64,000 nt of DNA, from positions 124,001-188,000 of the forward strand of contig JALSNW010000051.1 in the NCBI GenBank assembly GCA_026986785.1, given 5' to 3'. Below the pieces are notes generated by a model. It worked only from the letters and a program-made list of their open reading frames with translations. It did no database searches and was not told the origin of the DNA. The stretch comes from Deltaproteobacteria bacterium. GTDB lineage: Bacteria > Desulfobacterota > Dissulfuribacteria > Dissulfuribacterales > QOAL01. The position numbers were made by a program, and so were the translations under genes. Of the stretch, positions 39,480 to 57,292 are shown one piece after another (position 1 is the first letter of the stretch; the number at the start of each line of letters is the position of its first letter).

Positions 39480-39660
39480 AGTTTCCCTGCTGTGTTCGTG
39501 GGCTGCTGTCAGTTTGTTGAGCCAACACCCCGTACAAGGGAGTCGTCTCTTCGTGGAAGAGTGGAAAGGGAGAACAGCCCTATCCGTTGGAAGCGAAAAT
39601 GACACCCACCTGAGTTTACTCAGGTTCAATAGACCCAGCAGACACGGCACGGCGGGGCTT
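39480..39660 (+). ncRNA. ssrS: 6S RNA
   Basis: It lies directly after zapA, the classic location. The 5' part TGCTGTGTTCG pairs through one G-U with ACACGGCA near the 3' end, forming the closing stem. Between them are the expected side arms, GGGCTGCTGTC...TTGAGCC and the 3' hairpin CCACCTGAGTTTACTCAGG, which lines up with the CACCTTGAACCAAGGGTTCA arm of the E. coli molecule. TACAAT at 39467-39472 fits a -10 box. The RNA mimics an open promoter and sequesters the housekeeping RNA polymerase. Ends are approximate; CGGGG/CCCCG (39653-39684) and AGACCCAG/CTGGGTCT can form an alternative 3' structure. Confidence 0.87.
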
Positions 39661-39692
39661 ATTAGGCTATAACCCCGTCTGGGTCTTAATAT

Positions 39693-49419: not shown

Positions 49420-50415
49420 ATGATAACGCGTATCATTGTGGCATTCGGGGCAGTCGTAGCAATCGTAGTAGCGGCCTTGATAGGCGGATCAGTGCCTGGT
49501 CTTCAACCCATTTTCGGGGTAGTGCTACCATATGTGGCCTTTGCGGTTTTTCTTGTAGGCTTTGCCCTCAAGGTGGTGAATTGGGCCAAGTCTCCTGTAC
49601 CGTTCCGTATCCCTACCACGGCAGGTCAAGAGTTCAGTTTGCCGTGGATAAAGTGGTCCAAGATAGAAAATCCCAGCACTACAGGCGGCGTGATCATGAG
49701 GATGTTTTTCGAGGTCTGCTGTTTCAGGTCCCTTTTTCGGAACATGAGAACAGACTTGAGATCTGGCTGGTTGATCCATCATCCCACTAAGTGGCTGTGG
49801 CTCTTGGCTCTTGGTTTCCATTATTCCTTTTTGATCATAGCCCTAAGGCATTTGAGGTTGTTCGTGCAGCCAGTACCGGGCTTTGTTGAGACGCTGGATG
49901 CAGTAGACGGTATGTTCCAGATAGGAATTCCCCCTATCTATCTTACAGATATAATCATCCTGTTGGCCCTTACCGGCCTGCTCATCAGGCGGCTATTTCT
50001 ACCCAAGATGAGGTTTATGTCGCTCGTGGCCGACTATTTCCCCTTGTTTCTCATCCTGGGCATAGTAATAACAGGACTTTTGATGAGGTTTGTGTACAGA
50101 GTTGACATAACTGCAGTCAAGGCCCTGGCCAATGGTATAGCGAGTTTCCATCCGGTTATGCCCAAGGGGATCGGGACCATCTTCTTTGTACACATAGCCC
50201 TTGTGAGTACGCTTTTGGCCTATTTCCCATTTAGTAAGCTCATGCACATGGGTGGTGTCTTTATGAGCCCCACGAGAAACCTTGCCAATACCAACAGGAT
50301 GGAATATCACGAGAACCCATGGCGCAAACCTCCAAAATTTCATTCTTACGAAGAATATGAAGATATGTACAGGGATTATATGAAAGAGGCTGGATTACCT
50401 TTGGAGAGAGAATAA
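49420..50415 (+). CDS. dsrM: DsrM, cytochrome b subunit of the DsrMKJOP complex
   Basis: 331 residues, NarI-like, with about six helices; heme-ligand His candidates lie in LALGFHYSFLIIALRHLRLF and in the later helix ending KLMHMGG. It oxidises menaquinol and passes electrons to DsrK on the cytoplasmic side. Close before dsrK (18 nt). Confidence 0.94.
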   Translation: MITRIIVAFGAVVAIVVAALIGGSVPGLQPIFGVVLPYVAFAVFLVGFALKVVNWAKSPVPFRIPTTAGQEFSLPWIKWSKIENPSTTGGVIMRMFFEVCCFRSLFRNMRTDLRSGWLIHHPTKWLWLLALGFHYSFLIIALRHLRLFVQPVPGFVETLDAVDGMFQIGIPPIYLTDIIILLALTGLLIRRLFLPKMRFMSLVADYFPLFLILGIVITGLLMRFVYRVDITAVKALANGIASFHPVMPKGIGTIFFVHIALVSTLLAYFPFSKLMHMGGVFMSPTRNLANTNRMEYHENPWRKPPKFHSYEEYEDMYRDYMKEAGLPLERE

Positions 50416-50433
50416 GTAAAGGGAAAAGATATT

Positions 50434-52053
50434 ATGGCAAAACAATTGACACCCCAAGAAATGATGAGGATTGACCTCAGTCCCCCAACAAGGGACTGGA
50501 TGGACATTCCTACTGTAATCAAGCCAGGCATCTATTGTTATCCTGCCAAACCTGAAAAGGTTGAGATCGTCGGGATGCCCAACGCACATGTGTGGAGCCC
50601 TGTGGAAGAGGATTGGGGCCTTCCTGAAGATTGGAAGGAGACATTCCTCGAGGGAATGCGGGAACGTCTGGACAAGCACCGTTCATTCAAGATCTTTATG
50701 GATATATGTGTACGCTGTGGTGCTTGTGCTGATAAGTGCCACTTCTTCCTCGGATCTGGTGATCCCAAGAACATGCCAGTTGTCAGGGCAGAGCTTATAC
50801 GATCCATCTATAGGGGGGAGTTCACAAAGGCAGGGAAGATACTCGGTAGGCTTGCAGGCGGCAGAAAATTGACGGACAAGGTGCTAAAAGAAATATGGTA
50901 CTACATGTTTCAATGCACTGAATGTCGCCGTTGTTCTCTCTTTTGTCCATACGGCATAGATACTGCCGAAGTAACCATTATAGGTCGAGAGCTGCTTAAC
51001 CTGTTTGGTCTGAACATCAATTGGATCCAGGAGCCAGTTGCAAATTGTTATGAGACAGGCAACCACCTAGGGCTTCTTCCCCATACGTTCAAGCAGAATA
51101 TAGAGTTCATGTGCATGGACATCGAGGAATTTGTGGGAATCACCATTGAACCGCCCTTTAACAAAAAAGGTGCAGAGATCCTGTTCGTCACTCCATCAGG
51201 AGATGTCTTCGCCGAACCAGGGATCTTTACGTTGGCTGGTTACCTGATGCTCTTTGAACATCTAAACCTCGACTATACCTGGAGTACATATGCCAGTGAG
51301 GGTGGGAACTTTGGATTCTTTACTTCTCTCGATATGGCCCAAAGGCTGAATGCCAAGATCTATGCAGAGGCCAAAAGGCTTGGTGTGAAGTGGATACTGG
51401 GTGGTGAGTGTGGCCATATGTGGCGTGTTGTGCATCAGTACATGAATACGTTCAATGGGCCACCTGAATTTTTGGAAGAGCCAGTTTCCCCCATAACAGG
51501 CACCAAGTTTGAGAATGCCAAGTCTACAAAAATGGTGCATATCACGGAGTTCACGGCAGATCTCATAAAACATGGAAAGTTGAAGCTGGATCCCAGTAGG
51601 AACGACCATTTGAAGGTGACCTACCATGATTCATGCAACCCATCGCGTGGCATGGGCATGTTCGAAGAGCCAAGATACGTGATAAAAAATGTCTGTAATC
51701 ATTTTTACGACATGCCTGAAAACACCATCAGAGAGCAGACCTTCTGCTGCGGTAGCGGTGCTGGTCTGAATGCTGGTGAGAATATGGAACTCAGGCTCAG
51801 GGGAGGCCTGCCCAGGGCAAATGCAGTCAAATATGTCCATGAGCGTTTTGGGGCAAATATGCTTGCATGTGTTTGCGCCATTGATAGAGCCGTTCTTCCC
51901 GCCTCCATGGAATACTGGGTTCCTGGAATGAATGTTTGCGGTGTCTCGGAGCTGGTAGCAAATGCCTTGATCATGGAAGGAGAGAACGAACGTACTGTCA
52001 ACCTGAGGGGCGAAGAGATACCAGGAAGAGGGGAGGTAACAGAAGATGTATGA
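50434..52053 (+). CDS. dsrK: DsrK, HdrD-like iron-sulfur subunit
   Basis: 539 residues. Two 4Fe-4S motifs CVRCGACADKC and CTECRRCSLFCP, and the C-terminal non-cubane-type sequence with HDSCNP and FCCGSGAG, as in heterodisulfide reductase D. It faces the cytoplasm and is thought to reduce the DsrC trisulfide made by DsrAB. Overlaps dsrJ by 8 nt. Confidence 0.96.
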   Translation: MAKQLTPQEMMRIDLSPPTRDWMDIPTVIKPGIYCYPAKPEKVEIVGMPNAHVWSPVEEDWGLPEDWKETFLEGMRERLDKHRSFKIFMDICVRCGACADKCHFFLGSGDPKNMPVVRAELIRSIYRGEFTKAGKILGRLAGGRKLTDKVLKEIWYYMFQCTECRRCSLFCPYGIDTAEVTIIGRELLNLFGLNINWIQEPVANCYETGNHLGLLPHTFKQNIEFMCMDIEEFVGITIEPPFNKKGAEILFVTPSGDVFAEPGIFTLAGYLMLFEHLNLDYTWSTYASEGGNFGFFTSLDMAQRLNAKIYAEAKRLGVKWILGGECGHMWRVVHQYMNTFNGPPEFLEEPVSPITGTKFENAKSTKMVHITEFTADLIKHGKLKLDPSRNDHLKVTYHDSCNPSRGMGMFEEPRYVIKNVCNHFYDMPENTIREQTFCCGSGAGLNAGENMELRLRGGLPRANAVKYVHERFGANMLACVCAIDRAVLPASMEYWVPGMNVCGVSELVANALIMEGENERTVNLRGEEIPGRGEVTEDV

Positions 52054-52444
52054 TTCAGGAAAGGTCATAGTCGGATTGCTCATCTTTGCCGGGATATTTC
52101 TCTTTCCCTTCATCTACCAGCACGGAGCTCCGGCCAAGAAGCCAAAGCCCAGTCTGGACACGCCGGCGATAAAGGCGCTGCCTGTAAAGAAGTGCGTGGA
52201 GGACACCAAGTTCATGATCACTACCCATATGCAGTTTCTGAACCACTGGCGTGACCAGGCCCTCAGAGAAGGCAACAGATGGTATGTGAACAAGGCTGGC
52301 AAAAAGGTATGGATCAGTTTGCAGAATACCTGTTTGAAGTGTCATTCGAATAAAAAGGATTTCTGCGACAAATGTCATAATTATGCAGCAGTTCAGCCCT
52401 ATTGCTGGGATTGTCATTATGATCCAAATGGGAGCAAGCTATGA
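52046..52444 (+). CDS. dsrJ: DsrJ, periplasmic triheme cytochrome c
   Basis: 132 residues: an N-terminal membrane anchor (VIVGLLIFAGIFLFPFIY) and three CxxCH heme sites (CLKCH, CDKCH, CWDCH). It carries electrons on the periplasmic side between DsrO/P and DsrM/K. ATG overlaps dsrK; its stop overlaps dsrO. Confidence 0.96.
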   Translation: MYDSGKVIVGLLIFAGIFLFPFIYQHGAPAKKPKPSLDTPAIKALPVKKCVEDTKFMITTHMQFLNHWRDQALREGNRWYVNKAGKKVWISLQNTCLKCHSNKKDFCDKCHNYAAVQPYCWDCHYDPNGSKL

Positions 52445-53271
52445 GTATGATGGATAGAAGAAAGTTTTTAAAGGTAGCAGGTCTTTCGACGCTGATCGGC
52501 CTTGGTGGCAGTAGCGCCTTTGAATTACTGAAGCCCGGCAAGGTAGATGCCGAGATGGAGCACGGGGCCCATGGTCATCATGAGGCCGCCAATGAAGAGG
52601 GGAAGGAGACAGGCCCCAAGACACGCTGGGCGATGTTGATTGACATGAAGGCCATCACCAAGGAAAAGGCCGAGAAGATAATACATACCTGTCATTATCT
52701 CCACAATGTGCCCAATTGGGGCAACCCAAAGGACGAAATCAAGTGGATCTGGGAGGAGGAATACGAACACGTATTCACTGACAGCTATAATGAATATGAC
52801 GAGGTTCTCGAAAAGCTGCCGTTCCTACTCATGTGCAATCACTGTGACGAACCACCGTGCGCCAGGGTTTGCCCTGTGGAGGCCACGTTCAGGCGGCCAG
52901 ACGGCGTGGTGGCCCAAGATTACCATAGGTGCATTGGATGCCGTTTCTGTATGGCAGCCTGTCCCTACGGTTCCAGAAGCTTCAACTGGCTCGACCCCAG
53001 GGTGGCACTGAAGAAGGAAATGGCCCAGGGCAGGAAATTGAACAAACAGTTCCCCACCAGGATGAGGGGGGTCGTGGAAAAGTGCAATTTCTGTGTCGAG
53101 CGTTTGGATGCAGGTAAGAAGCCTGCTTGTGTGGAGGCGTGTCCAGATGTTATGCACTTTGGCAATCTGGCAGACGAGAACTCCAATGTGCGGAAGATAC
53201 TCAGGGAGAGGATTTCCCTCAGGCGCAAACTGGAACTTGGAACCAAACCATCAGTATTCTATCTGGTGTAG
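52441..53271 (+). CDS. dsrO: DsrO, periplasmic ferredoxin-like subunit with Tat signal
   Basis: 276 residues. Tat signal with DRRKFLK and a hydrophobic stretch to about residue 30. Four Cys clusters: CNHCDEPPCARVCP, CIGCRFCMAACP, CNFCVERLDAGKKPACVEAC and an early Cys set. It passes electrons to the integral subunit DsrP. ATGA overlap with dsrJ. Confidence 0.96.
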   Translation: MSMMDRRKFLKVAGLSTLIGLGGSSAFELLKPGKVDAEMEHGAHGHHEAANEEGKETGPKTRWAMLIDMKAITKEKAEKIIHTCHYLHNVPNWGNPKDEIKWIWEEEYEHVFTDSYNEYDEVLEKLPFLLMCNHCDEPPCARVCPVEATFRRPDGVVAQDYHRCIGCRFCMAACPYGSRSFNWLDPRVALKKEMAQGRKLNKQFPTRMRGVVEKCNFCVERLDAGKKPACVEACPDVMHFGNLADENSNVRKILRERISLRRKLELGTKPSVFYLV

Positions 53272-53283
53272 TGCGAGGTCATC

Positions 53284-54444
53284 ATGATTGAAAAGGCTTT
53301 AAAAGGATCATCTGTTTACTGGGGATGGGTGATATTTCTACTTTGTATCATCGGGGCAGGTTTCATAGCCTATCTGTATCAGTTGAAGGTAGGTCTTGGT
53401 GTCACCGGTATGAGCAGAGATATCTCCTGGGGTGTTTACATCGCCCAATTCACCTATTTCGTTGGTGTTGCTGCAGGTGCAGTAATGCTTGTCATACCAA
53501 AGTATCTGCACCACTATACTAAGTATGCAAAGGTGGTTGTATTTGGTGAATTCTTGGCTATAGCGGCGGTTGTCATGTGTCTGCTCTTCATCATTGTGGA
53601 TATCGGGCAGCCAATGAGGATGATGAATGTGGTCTTGCATCCTACACCCCATTCCATGCTCTTTTACGACATGATAGTGCTAAACGGCTATCTCATCATA
53701 AATATCATATGTGGTTACAACACGCTTCTTGCCGATAAGAAGGGCCTGCCGTGCCCAGGCTGGGTAAAGCCTTTTATATATCTGTCCATCCCGTGGGCCA
53801 TCAGTATTCACACTGTCACGGCGTTTCTGTATGCAGGTCTTCCTGGTAGGCATTTTTGGCTGACAGCCATTATGGCTCCACGCTTTCTGGCATCTGCTTT
53901 TGCCGCCGGTCCTTCCCTTCTGGTAATGATCCTGCTGTTTGTCAGGAAGGTGACGAAGTTCGATCCAGGCGAGGAGGCGCTTCAGAATATAGCCAGGACC
54001 ATCTGTTATGCCATGATAGTGAACTTCTTTTTCATGGGTATGGAATTCTTTACGGCCTTTTATAGTAATATTCCGGGCCACAAGGCTACTTTGGAGTACC
54101 TTTTCTGGGGTATTGGACAATATGGAAACCTGGTACCCTTCATGAGGGCATGTATAATAATAGGTTTTGCCGGGATCTTTATATTGCTGGTGCCGCCTAT
54201 CAGGAGAAACCCGTTCTGGCTGGCAGTAGGCTGTGCTTGTGTCTTTCTGGCCACATGGATAGACAAGGGTGTGGGCCTGGTTATTGGCGGTTTTATCCCT
54301 AATCCCTTGGAGATGATTACTGAATATCACCCCACATTCCCTGAAATCACGATAGCCACGGCTATATGGGCTGTAGGAGGATTGATATTGACCATCTTGT
54401 ACAAGGTAGCTATCTCAGTAAGAGAGGAGGAGCAGCGCATTTGA
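53284..54444 (+). CDS. dsrP: DsrP, NrfD-like integral membrane subunit
   Basis: 386 residues with about ten helices and the NrfD/PsrC-like motifs (MSRDISWGVYIAQFTYFVGV near the start, IPWAISIHTVTAFLYAGLPG later). It binds quinone and works with DsrO. Last gene of the operon; a hairpin follows. Confidence 0.95.
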   Translation: MIEKALKGSSVYWGWVIFLLCIIGAGFIAYLYQLKVGLGVTGMSRDISWGVYIAQFTYFVGVAAGAVMLVIPKYLHHYTKYAKVVVFGEFLAIAAVVMCLLFIIVDIGQPMRMMNVVLHPTPHSMLFYDMIVLNGYLIINIICGYNTLLADKKGLPCPGWVKPFIYLSIPWAISIHTVTAFLYAGLPGRHFWLTAIMAPRFLASAFAAGPSLLVMILLFVRKVTKFDPGEEALQNIARTICYAMIVNFFFMGMEFFTAFYSNIPGHKATLEYLFWGIGQYGNLVPFMRACIIIGFAGIFILLVPPIRRNPFWLAVGCACVFLATWIDKGVGLVIGGFIPNPLEMITEYHPTFPEITIATAIWAVGGLILTILYKVAISVREEEQRI

Positions 54445-54486
54445 TCTCCTAACAGCATAAGTATCCTATTCACCTTAAAGTAACAC

Positions 54487-54515
54487 GACAGGCAGCCTTT
54501 GGCAGGCTGCCTGTC
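54487..54515. terminator. Hairpin between dsrP and the zinc-ribbon gene
   Basis: Perfect 12-bp stem GACAGGCAGCCT / AGGCTGCCTGTC with a 5-nt loop. The T-run is weak on both sides, so it may be a processing or transcript-end structure serving both convergent genes; it abuts the stop of the zinc-ribbon gene. Confidence 0.65.
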
Positions 54516-54755
54516 TCAGTCTTGATGAGAGTTAATTTCACATATCATCCTCTCTTTCATCTCATCTATCTGCTCCCTGTACTGGGACGCAGGTAGCTCG
54601 ATCCCGCAGGACCTGCAGGTGACCGTGGCATTGGCTCATCTACCCTTGAGCAATGCTGGGCCACCACATAATAGGCATGTCAATACATCGTCTTTTTCTC
54701 GATTGTCTTGACGTATGGGGTCTTGGTCAGATTTTTTTCGTGGGTGCTCAGGCAT
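54516..54755 (-). pseudogene. Small zinc-ribbon protein gene interrupted by an in-frame TGA
   Basis: Read on the minus strand from ATG 54755 (AGGA 4-5 nt upstream) the frame encodes a basic N-terminus, LTCLLCGGPALLKGR, then TGA at 54636-54638. It then continues without a break with ANATVTCRSCGIELPASQYR, an acidic helix and a stop that touches the dsrP hairpin. The two C-x2-C pairs, one on each side of the TGA, together make one four-Cys zinc ribbon, so both halves belong to one protein. Either the gene carries a nonsense change (CGA or TGG to TGA would do) or the TGA is read as selenocysteine. No redox motif such as C-x2-U is formed, so a broken gene is the simpler reading. Confidence 0.6.
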
Positions 54756-54883: not shown

Positions 54884-55516
54884 ATGGCTCAAAATCCAAT
54901 AAAATCTGGTGATCTTGACAAAATAATACAGGATCTGGAAAAGGAAGTAAAAGAAAACAAAAATTCAGTAGTGGCACATCACAGGTTGGCTCTGGCCTAT
55001 TGGAAGGCCGGGCGCTCTGATGACGCCATTGGGGAGTTTCAAAAGGCCTTGAAGTTGGACCCTGCCTCTTTCGAGATCAGGATAAATCTCGGTACGCTTT
55101 TCTTTCAGCTCGGTCGATTGGAAGAGGGTATTCGTGAAAATCTCGAGGCCTTAAATGCCCATCCAGGTTCAGCCGAGGCAATGGCCAATATCGGTTCAGC
55201 CTACCTACAGTTGGGAAAATGGGAAGATGCGGAGACATATTTCAAGAAGGCCTTGGATCTGAAACCCGAGATGGTTCCTGCCCTGACCAATTACGCCACT
55301 GTCTTGATCGAAAGGAACAAGGCCGATGAGGCTGTGAAGGTGGCAGAAAAGGCTGTCAGTCTGGCACCGCGATTTGGCTTGGCATTTAACAATCTTGCCG
55401 TTGCATGTTATTACAAAGGGGATATAGAGAGGGCAGCAAAGGCCATGAAAAAGGCCAAGGAGCTTGGCTATCCCATTCATCCAGATTTCGAGGCCAAGAT
55501 AAAATCGGCAGCTTGA
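54884..55516 (+). CDS. TPR-repeat protein
   Basis: 210 residues, about four to five TPR units (AHHRLALAYWKAGRSDDAIG, IRINLGTLFFQLGRLEEGIR, MANIGSAYLQLGKWEDAETY, FNNLAVACYYKGDIERAAKA). No signal peptide. ATG 54884 is fixed by AGGAGG; a GTG at 54866 is less likely. Same strand and 24 nt before the DVU0298-like gene. A scaffold for the Dsr system is possible but only suggested by position. Confidence 0.85.
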   Translation: MAQNPIKSGDLDKIIQDLEKEVKENKNSVVAHHRLALAYWKAGRSDDAIGEFQKALKLDPASFEIRINLGTLFFQLGRLEEGIRENLEALNAHPGSAEAMANIGSAYLQLGKWEDAETYFKKALDLKPEMVPALTNYATVLIERNKADEAVKVAEKAVSLAPRFGLAFNNLAVACYYKGDIERAAKAMKKAKELGYPIHPDFEAKIKSAA

Positions 55517-55540
55517 TATATGGGTTTGGAGTGAGTAGAT

Positions 55541-57292
55541 ATGGCCTCAGGTTATGAAGTGTTAGAGCCTCGATGCCCCTTTTGCAACCAGAGGTTGGAG
55601 CGTCCCAAGGAACTCGAACCAATGCGCAGAGGGGACTTCGAATATGGTGTTTGTTCTTGTGGTGCAGTCTTCGTTCATGACGTCACTGGGTTCAATCTTG
55701 GAGCTGCCATGGTCGAGGCATTGGAGTTTGCCTGTGATGCAGACCTGGACCTGGCATGGGACCTCATGCCGGGAGAAGACTATCAAGATGCCCTGATAGA
55801 GGGTTATGATATCGGCAAGCACCTCATCTATCCAGAAGGCCATGACTATCAAGGGCATAGGATAAAGGGGGCCTTGAGTTTTATCAGGCTCAGTGATGAT
55901 ATTCGTGATGCCAAGGCCCAGGGCATTCGAGTTAAATTCGAAACCAATGCCCAGCCTCCACCTATTTCTCCTGCAGCCAGGAGCGCAGACCTCAAGAAAT
56001 TGCGTAAAAATCGGTTTTCTAAAAAGGAGGTGGCCAAGGCTGTCAGGGAGAGAAATCTGGAATTATTGACAGAAATGGCCAGTAAGGACCGGTTGGTACT
56101 GAGGAAGATGCAAAGGCTTCTCTACAATGCCGATCCTTCTGAACGCTGGAAGGCCGTGATCATGCTGGGTGGGGTGGCAGGGGCCATTGCTCAAGATGAC
56201 CCGGCCACGGTCGGTGACCTGCTCAGGAGACTTCTATACGCTGCCAACGATTCAGCTGCTACCAATTGGGGCACTATAGAGACAGTAGGCGAGATCATAA
56301 GAAATCAGCCGGGGCTTTATGGATCTTTTGTGCGGCATATCTTGGGGCTTGTTGGGGATAAACCCTCTATACCAGCCATTTTGTGGGCAATGGGGCGAAT
56401 AGGTGAGCTTTATCCAAGGCTTGTCAGAAACAGCTCTTTTTTTATCATATTTGATCTCCTTACTGCTTCTGATCCTGCTGTAAGGGGACATGCAGTGTGG
56501 GCATTGGGGCAAGTAGGCGCCTCGGAGGCAAAAGGGGCTATTGGTCGCCTGACTGGAGATCAGGCAGGGTTTGAACTCTTTGATGGAATACGGGTTAGGT
56601 CCACAACGGTTGGGGCTGTGGCCTTGGATGCACTTAAAAAAATGGAAGAGAAAAAAATGGACAAACAGGAAAACAGGATGGAATCTAAACAGGAGAAGGA
56701 GTTGAAATCCCAGAAAGAACCACCAGAGATCACCCAGGCCTGGCATATTTATCAGGAGGCTGAGATCCTGAAGAACCGTGGTCAATCCCTGGATGCCATG
56801 GCCCGCTTTGAAGAGATCTTGGGGATCTTCGACCATTTTGGCTACGAGGCGGAGGTGGCGAACATATGTGAGAAGCTGGGTGATATTCATGTCATGAGGG
56901 GCAATATCAAGGCAGCTTTTTCTCCATATCAACGGGCCCTGGCAATCTGTGAAAAAAAGAAAGACCCGGTGAGTACGGTAATCATGCTCGAGAAGGTGAT
57001 CGATCTCTACAGGCATGAAAAGGAATTTGACAAGGCGCTACCCTATTTTTTCAGGGCATTGGAACTCGTAGAGGGTTTGAAGGATGTTAAGAGATCCGCC
57101 ATGTTTCTTGCTGGTATCGGGGATATCTATGAGCGCCAAGGCAAGATAGAGGATGCCTTGGATGCCTATAAGCTGGCAGAAAAACTATTCAGAAACATGG
57201 GGGCCAAAGAAAAGGCAAAGACCCTGCAAGATGGCATTGCAGTTCTCGAGAAGAGGCTTGCTCAGTCAGATGCGCCACCATCCGAGTCCTGA
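55541..57292 (+). CDS. DVU0298-like HEAT-repeat protein fused to TPRs
   Basis: 583 residues in three parts. The N-terminus has a small zinc-ribbon-like set of Cys (CPFCNQRL and CSCG) and a conserved region. The middle (about 160-370) is HEAT-like (MQRLLYNADPSERWKAVIML, NWGTIETVGEIIRNQPGLYG, AILWAMGRIGELYPRL), which resembles the DVU0298 family known from sulfate reducers (from memory). After a Lys/Glu-rich linker comes a TPR tail (about 400-565). It is likely a protein-interaction scaffold. It ends 31 nt inside the convergent cysteine-cluster gene. Confidence 0.72.
   Translation: MASGYEVLEPRCPFCNQRLERPKELEPMRRGDFEYGVCSCGAVFVHDVTGFNLGAAMVEALEFACDADLDLAWDLMPGEDYQDALIEGYDIGKHLIYPEGHDYQGHRIKGALSFIRLSDDIRDAKAQGIRVKFETNAQPPPISPAARSADLKKLRKNRFSKKEVAKAVRERNLELLTEMASKDRLVLRKMQRLLYNADPSERWKAVIMLGGVAGAIAQDDPATVGDLLRRLLYAANDSAATNWGTIETVGEIIRNQPGLYGSFVRHILGLVGDKPSIPAILWAMGRIGELYPRLVRNSSFFIIFDLLTASDPAVRGHAVWALGQVGASEAKGAIGRLTGDQAGFELFDGIRVRSTTVGAVALDALKKMEEKKMDKQENRMESKQEKELKSQKEPPEITQAWHIYQEAEILKNRGQSLDAMARFEEILGIFDHFGYEAEVANICEKLGDIHVMRGNIKAAFSPYQRALAICEKKKDPVSTVIMLEKVIDLYRHEKEFDKALPYFFRALELVEGLKDVKRSAMFLAGIGDIYERQGKIEDALDAYKLAEKLFRNMGAKEKAKTLQDGIAVLEKRLAQSDAPPSES

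Follow-up and report, generated by a model that had tools for sequence, protein, structure and literature searches.

The 64-kb stretch of DNA analyzed here, hereafter the window, carries beside dsrP a short, putative zinc-ribbon gene whose reading frame is split by one in-frame TGA. This arrangement raises the questions of whether the TGA represents a fresh nonsense mutation or a recoded codon, an alternative raised by the initial annotation of the locus, and, in the latter case, what role the resulting protein may play next to the genes of dissimilatory sulfite reduction.

A probable zinc-ribbon frame holding one internal TGA

Re-reading of the frame and of its CLLC and CRSC motifs showed that the initial annotation had placed and described the TGA-split gene beside dsrP correctly (Table 1). 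The gene runs as a frame of 79 codons along 54755..54516 of the minus strand; its ATG lies at 54755-54753, the internal TGA at 54638-54636 and the terminal TGA stop at 54518-54516. The read-through product, MPEHPRKKSDQDPIRQDNREKDDVLTCLLCGGPALLKGR-U-ANATVTCRSCGIELPASQYREQIDEMKERMICEINSHQD, has 79 residues, with U as residue 40, CLLC preceding and CRSC succeeding the internal TGA. A codon pattern of two CxxC motifs with a TGA in between matched once in the window and never in 100 shuffles. The claim that the stop of the gene abuts a shared hairpin was likewise confirmed, as a GC-rich hairpin with a stem of 12 bp separates the gene from the convergent dsrP; the 70 nt that begin at the stop fold at -29.3 kcal/mol. 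Most family loci have a hairpin at this place, with altered sequence, and the window copy is without a clear T-run.

Table 1. Features of the TGA-containing gene and its surroundings (window coordinates)
Feature	Position	Strand	Basis
dsrP, convergent neighbor; last gene of dsrMKJOP (49420-54444)	53284..54444	+	
GC-rich terminator-like hairpin between the gene and dsrP	54486..54513	.	sequence; fold
Predicted selenoprotein CDS, 79 aa, stop included; NF041197 'dual CXXC motif small (seleno)protein', DW type	54516..54755	-	
Putative SECIS hairpin at +16 to +34 from the TGA; G-first loop at 54612-54610	54602..54620	-	covariation, fold
Second CxxC knuckle (CRSC), overlapping the SECIS	54606..54617	-	
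In-frame TGA, predicted Sec codon 40	54636..54638	-	relatives: TGA or Cys only
First CxxC knuckle (CLLC)	54666..54677	-	
TPR and HEAT/TPR proteins, divergent; conserved neighbors on the opposite flank	54885..57292	+	

The gene belongs to a catalogued family

With C written for U, the window protein reached 40.4 bits against the NCBIfam model NF041197 (CxxC_Se_CxxC; cut-off 40), with which it shares two CxxC motifs flanking Sec or Cys. In a six-frame search with the stop read through, the window gene scored 32.2 bits, and all 21 aligned members match the model. A 2026 review assigns NF041197 to two predicted selenoproteins: OS_HP3, whose motif is RxU, and 'hypothetical protein DW', whose motif is GxU; it gives Zhang and Gladyshev 2007 as the source of OS_HP3 (PMC13188914). 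The name DW comes from the deep-Sep study, in which Desulfosarcina sp. BuS5 and D. widdelii are the source organisms (Xiao and Zhang 2025; PMC12013277).

The strongest NF041197 members are OS_HP3-like ('RRUR', mostly ending in DRI or DRL), whereas the window protein represents a second type ('GRUANA...ELPA..Y') that lies near the cut-off. OS_HP3 and the window protein have in common the NF041197 model, the dual CxxC and the Sec in between; unlike the window type, however, OS_HP3 has an RxU motif, another C-terminus and Cys forms in several lineages. The GxU motif given for DW appears in the window protein as GRU, and a single locus in the genome of Desulfosarcina widdelii PP31 (L204) fits the window-type pattern, with CIFCGGRAKLRGRUANAKVACRDCG. 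Because of the GRU motif and this match, we assign the window gene to the DW type, an assignment by motif, model and organism. The family is already catalogued as a predicted selenoprotein, and the window gene is a new member of its DW type.

Two observations concern the wider family. The OS_HP3-like type ('CRRUR...ALRC..CG') occurs in the same phylum in Sec or Cys forms (L035-L046, L061-L076), the latter with Cys at the aligned place; it is present in many DW-bearing genomes, so that several genomes have both types, and was not found by profile search in the window genome. In two members from genomes labelled Candidatus Desulfofervidaceae (L130 and L133, from G125 and G092), the frame runs about 100 residues past the usual end of the family, and a Pfam search of this C-terminal extension returned nothing above cut-off.

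Relatives retain the TGA or, rarely, carry Cys

When the GTDB family (19 genomes) was searched by protein, the gene turned up in 18 genomes, window included, all carrying TGA at the site. A profile built from 21 sequences and applied to 297 genomes from the phylum yielded 37 DW-type members from 16 GTDB families, of which 36 carry TGA and one carries Cys (G054); two weaker matches represent the paralogous type and lie outside the 37. To avoid bias, we also ran over GTDB genomes a DNA pattern in which the conserved flanks were fixed and the codon at the site was left free. This pattern reported 85 stretches, and the 80 examined as loci carry TGA (79) or TGC (1) and nothing else. The initial annotation had proposed to decide the matter by Cys as opposed to Arg, Trp or Ser in homologues: among the relatives recovered by the phylum profile and the free-codon pattern the site holds TGA or rarely Cys, and never Arg, Trp or Ser. 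No relatives were found on plasmids. Downstream of the TGA, third codon positions show roughly double the changes of first or second ones among relatives, and amino-acid identity amounts to 67-79% within the genus. As third positions vary most and amino-acid identity is high, the sequence beyond the TGA evolves as coding sequence.

A lone in-frame TGA in a short frame is what a recent nonsense mutation, or an assembly error, in a formerly intact zinc-ribbon gene would leave behind. Yet in the phylum sample the same TGA is shared by relatives from 16 GTDB families, bar one Cys form, and it is found in nearly all loci of the free-codon pattern, with coding constraint persisting 3' of it, which renders this explanation scarcely conceivable; the presence of the codon in dozens of genomes assembled independently excludes an assembly error. 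A frame open through the TGA would look identical if the codon were read as Trp or passed by non-specific read-through. However, Cys is the sole sense codon found, without any Trp or Arg homologue, and the window gene itself uses TGA as its terminal stop. With relatives restricted to TGA and Cys, we rejected Trp decoding as well as a nonsense mutation or an assembly error.

A covarying hairpin follows the TGA

The hairpin begins 15 nt past the TGA, with nucleotides +16 to +23 forming a stem with +27 to +34 around a 3-nt, mostly G-first loop. Among 21 sequences, 91.1% of cells are paired, a share that falls to 33-55% once the partner is shifted by 1-3 columns, and the covariation score is 0.373 versus 0.146 (sd 0.024) for shuffled sequences, the pair +23/+27 appearing as C-G, G-C, A-U, U-A and G-U. 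In 101 distinct sequences pairing reaches 79.7%, compared to a mean of 72.2% and a maximum of 75.1% for shuffles of whole 3' halves, with the outer pair +16/+34 formed in only 41% and G at the loop start in 80 of the 101. Of these controls, shuffles leave shared ancestry in, whereas shifted controls remove it. The predicted energy of the window hairpin, -12.4 kcal/mol, is ordinary for its composition (z -0.39); it is the covariation across relatives, and not the energy, that sets the hairpin apart from chance.

The hairpin drawn in the initial annotation thus proved to be real, covarying in the manner of a bacterial SECIS. The AGGUCCU loop proposed with it was not upheld, as two extra pairs (A-U and G-C) close a 3-nt GUC loop, in the register of the relatives. 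The bacterial SECIS consensus, as given in the review, comprises a loop with G first, a stem of 4-16 bp, an apical loop 16-37 nt after the UGA and an energy below -7.5 kcal/mol (PMC13188914). The window hairpin fits this description, its apical loop lying 23 nt after the UGA; it differs in that its stem overlaps the codons of the second CxxC and in that an Rfam search at the window gene gave no match.

The DW type was seen in Cys form only twice (L158 and L237); the aligned hairpin is partly degraded in the former and mostly kept in the latter.

The genome encodes a complete selenocysteine system

All four Sec genes whose presence the initial annotation had suggested checking (selA, selB, selC and selD) are present in the window genome, which has SelA, SelB, SelD and a tRNA-Sec with anticodon TCA (UCA). 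Its SelD gene (G000:C28:10066-10989, L077) contains an in-frame TGA within SGUAAKI, at the usual selenocysteine site of SelD. A complete Sec machinery, a SelD with its own in-frame TGA and a covarying hairpin at SECIS distance all speak against Trp decoding or non-specific read-through, which we consider very improbable.

Taken together, these results strongly favor recoding over a fresh nonsense mutation, the homologues carrying TGA or rarely Cys, the Sec genes being present and the hairpin covarying. As judged from sequence comparison, the internal TGA of this NF041197 member is very probably a selenocysteine codon. In the proposed mechanism, UGA codon 40 would be decoded as Sec on the signal of the downstream SECIS hairpin with its G-first 3-nt loop, which would be read by SelB with tRNA-Sec.

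Predicted structure of the read-through protein

The structure model (mean pLDDT 74.6) consists of a beta ribbon (residues 24-26, 33-37, 44-47 and 53-55) and a helix spanning 56-77; Sec 40 occupies the turn joining the central strands. Both CxxC motifs are invariant in the 21-sequence alignment, as is an Arg or Lys preceding Sec; in some Thermodesulfobacterium-like members Thr, Asn or His precedes it. A Cys three residues ahead of Sec (CxxU) is found in some members only, which makes a fixed internal selenenylsulfide unlikely. Searches of Pfam and of solved structures returned weak zinc-ribbon resemblances only (LysW, TFIIS, RNA polymerase subunits), with no confident match. We infer that the two CxxC knuckles would bind one zinc ion and hold the short beta ribbon, the turn of which would present the selenol beside Arg, with the helix following the ribbon.

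Position beside dsr genes and confinement to dsrA-bearing genomes

Within the GTDB family, 17 of the 18 carrier genomes, window included, have the gene convergent with dsrP, placed between dsrMKJOP and a series of TPR, HEAT/TPR, CxxCxxCC and dsrA genes; the contig of the eighteenth (L085) breaks off short of where dsrP would lie. In the window, two CxxCxxCC-domain genes and then dsrA (58801) lie 3' of the TPR and HEAT/TPR genes. Three sister families of the order have the gene near dsrP or dsrA, and lineage L134 has it near dsrA. In two further families of the order and in most lineages outside it (Desulfosarcina, Thermodesulfobacterium and others), the gene is located away from dsr, the D. 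widdelii gene being without a dsr neighbor within its 8-kb locus. No recurring neighbor was found outside the dsr setting beyond common regulators and transport ATPases. The relatives with the gene beside dsrMKJOP probably include the sulfur disproportionator Dissulfurimicrobium hydrothermale. Gene callers that take TGA as a stop split the gene, and a conserved neighbor of a well-studied sulfur-respiration operon is thereby easily overlooked.

All 37 DW-type genomes contain dsrA, as compared to 144 of the 297 phylum genomes overall (Fisher p 1.5e-13, uncorrected for ancestry). Since SelB is present in 263 of the 297, the presence of a Sec system does not explain this confinement. The accessible parts of the published DW accounts make no mention of a dsr link (PMC12013277, PMC13188914). 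In the literature searched, which covered few subscription papers, we found no earlier report of a selenoprotein-dsr link, and neither the position of the gene beside dsr genes nor its confinement to dsrA-bearing genomes was found reported.

On a tentative reading, which we hold to be less likely than not, the DW-type protein would work as a selenium-dependent accessory dedicated to dissimilatory sulfite reduction or to sulfur disproportionation, and its selenol would act on DsrC, DsrMKJOP or a sulfur intermediate. The selenol would serve as a redox or sulfur-handling center for the dissimilatory sulfite reductase pathway and may, for instance, keep DsrC/DsrK-type thiols and persulfides reduced, or carry sulfane sulfur. 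Such a role would explain both the confinement to dsrA genomes and the place beside dsrMKJOP in the order; the functional tie to Dsr is nevertheless indirect, because the gene lies away from dsr genes in most lineages outside the order. The protein may instead be a true selenoprotein unrelated to sulfite reduction, that is, a zinc ribbon with a general function in redox, peroxide or metal/metalloid binding, the dsr setting reflecting inherited synteny within one order. The missing linkage in most other lineages, the lack of a recurring neighbor there other than common ones and the existence of a Cys form in the paralogous OS_HP3 type are in line with this explanation, to which we give nearly an even chance, although the DW type is confined to dsrA genomes throughout its 16 families in a phylum where SelB is widespread.

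The dsr association is in our view the part worth following up. Confinement to dsrA genomes and adjacency to dsrMKJOP point to a role that can be tested for the DW family, which otherwise has no assigned function, and, if the reading as a Dsr accessory holds true, selenium supply would be a factor in sulfite reduction or disproportionation.

Other features of the window

A rough scan of the window for further read-through TGA frames revealed no second convincing selenoprotein gene. Elsewhere in the window, a 6S RNA is located on the plus strand at 39481-39662 (Rfam RF00013, 76.5 bits).
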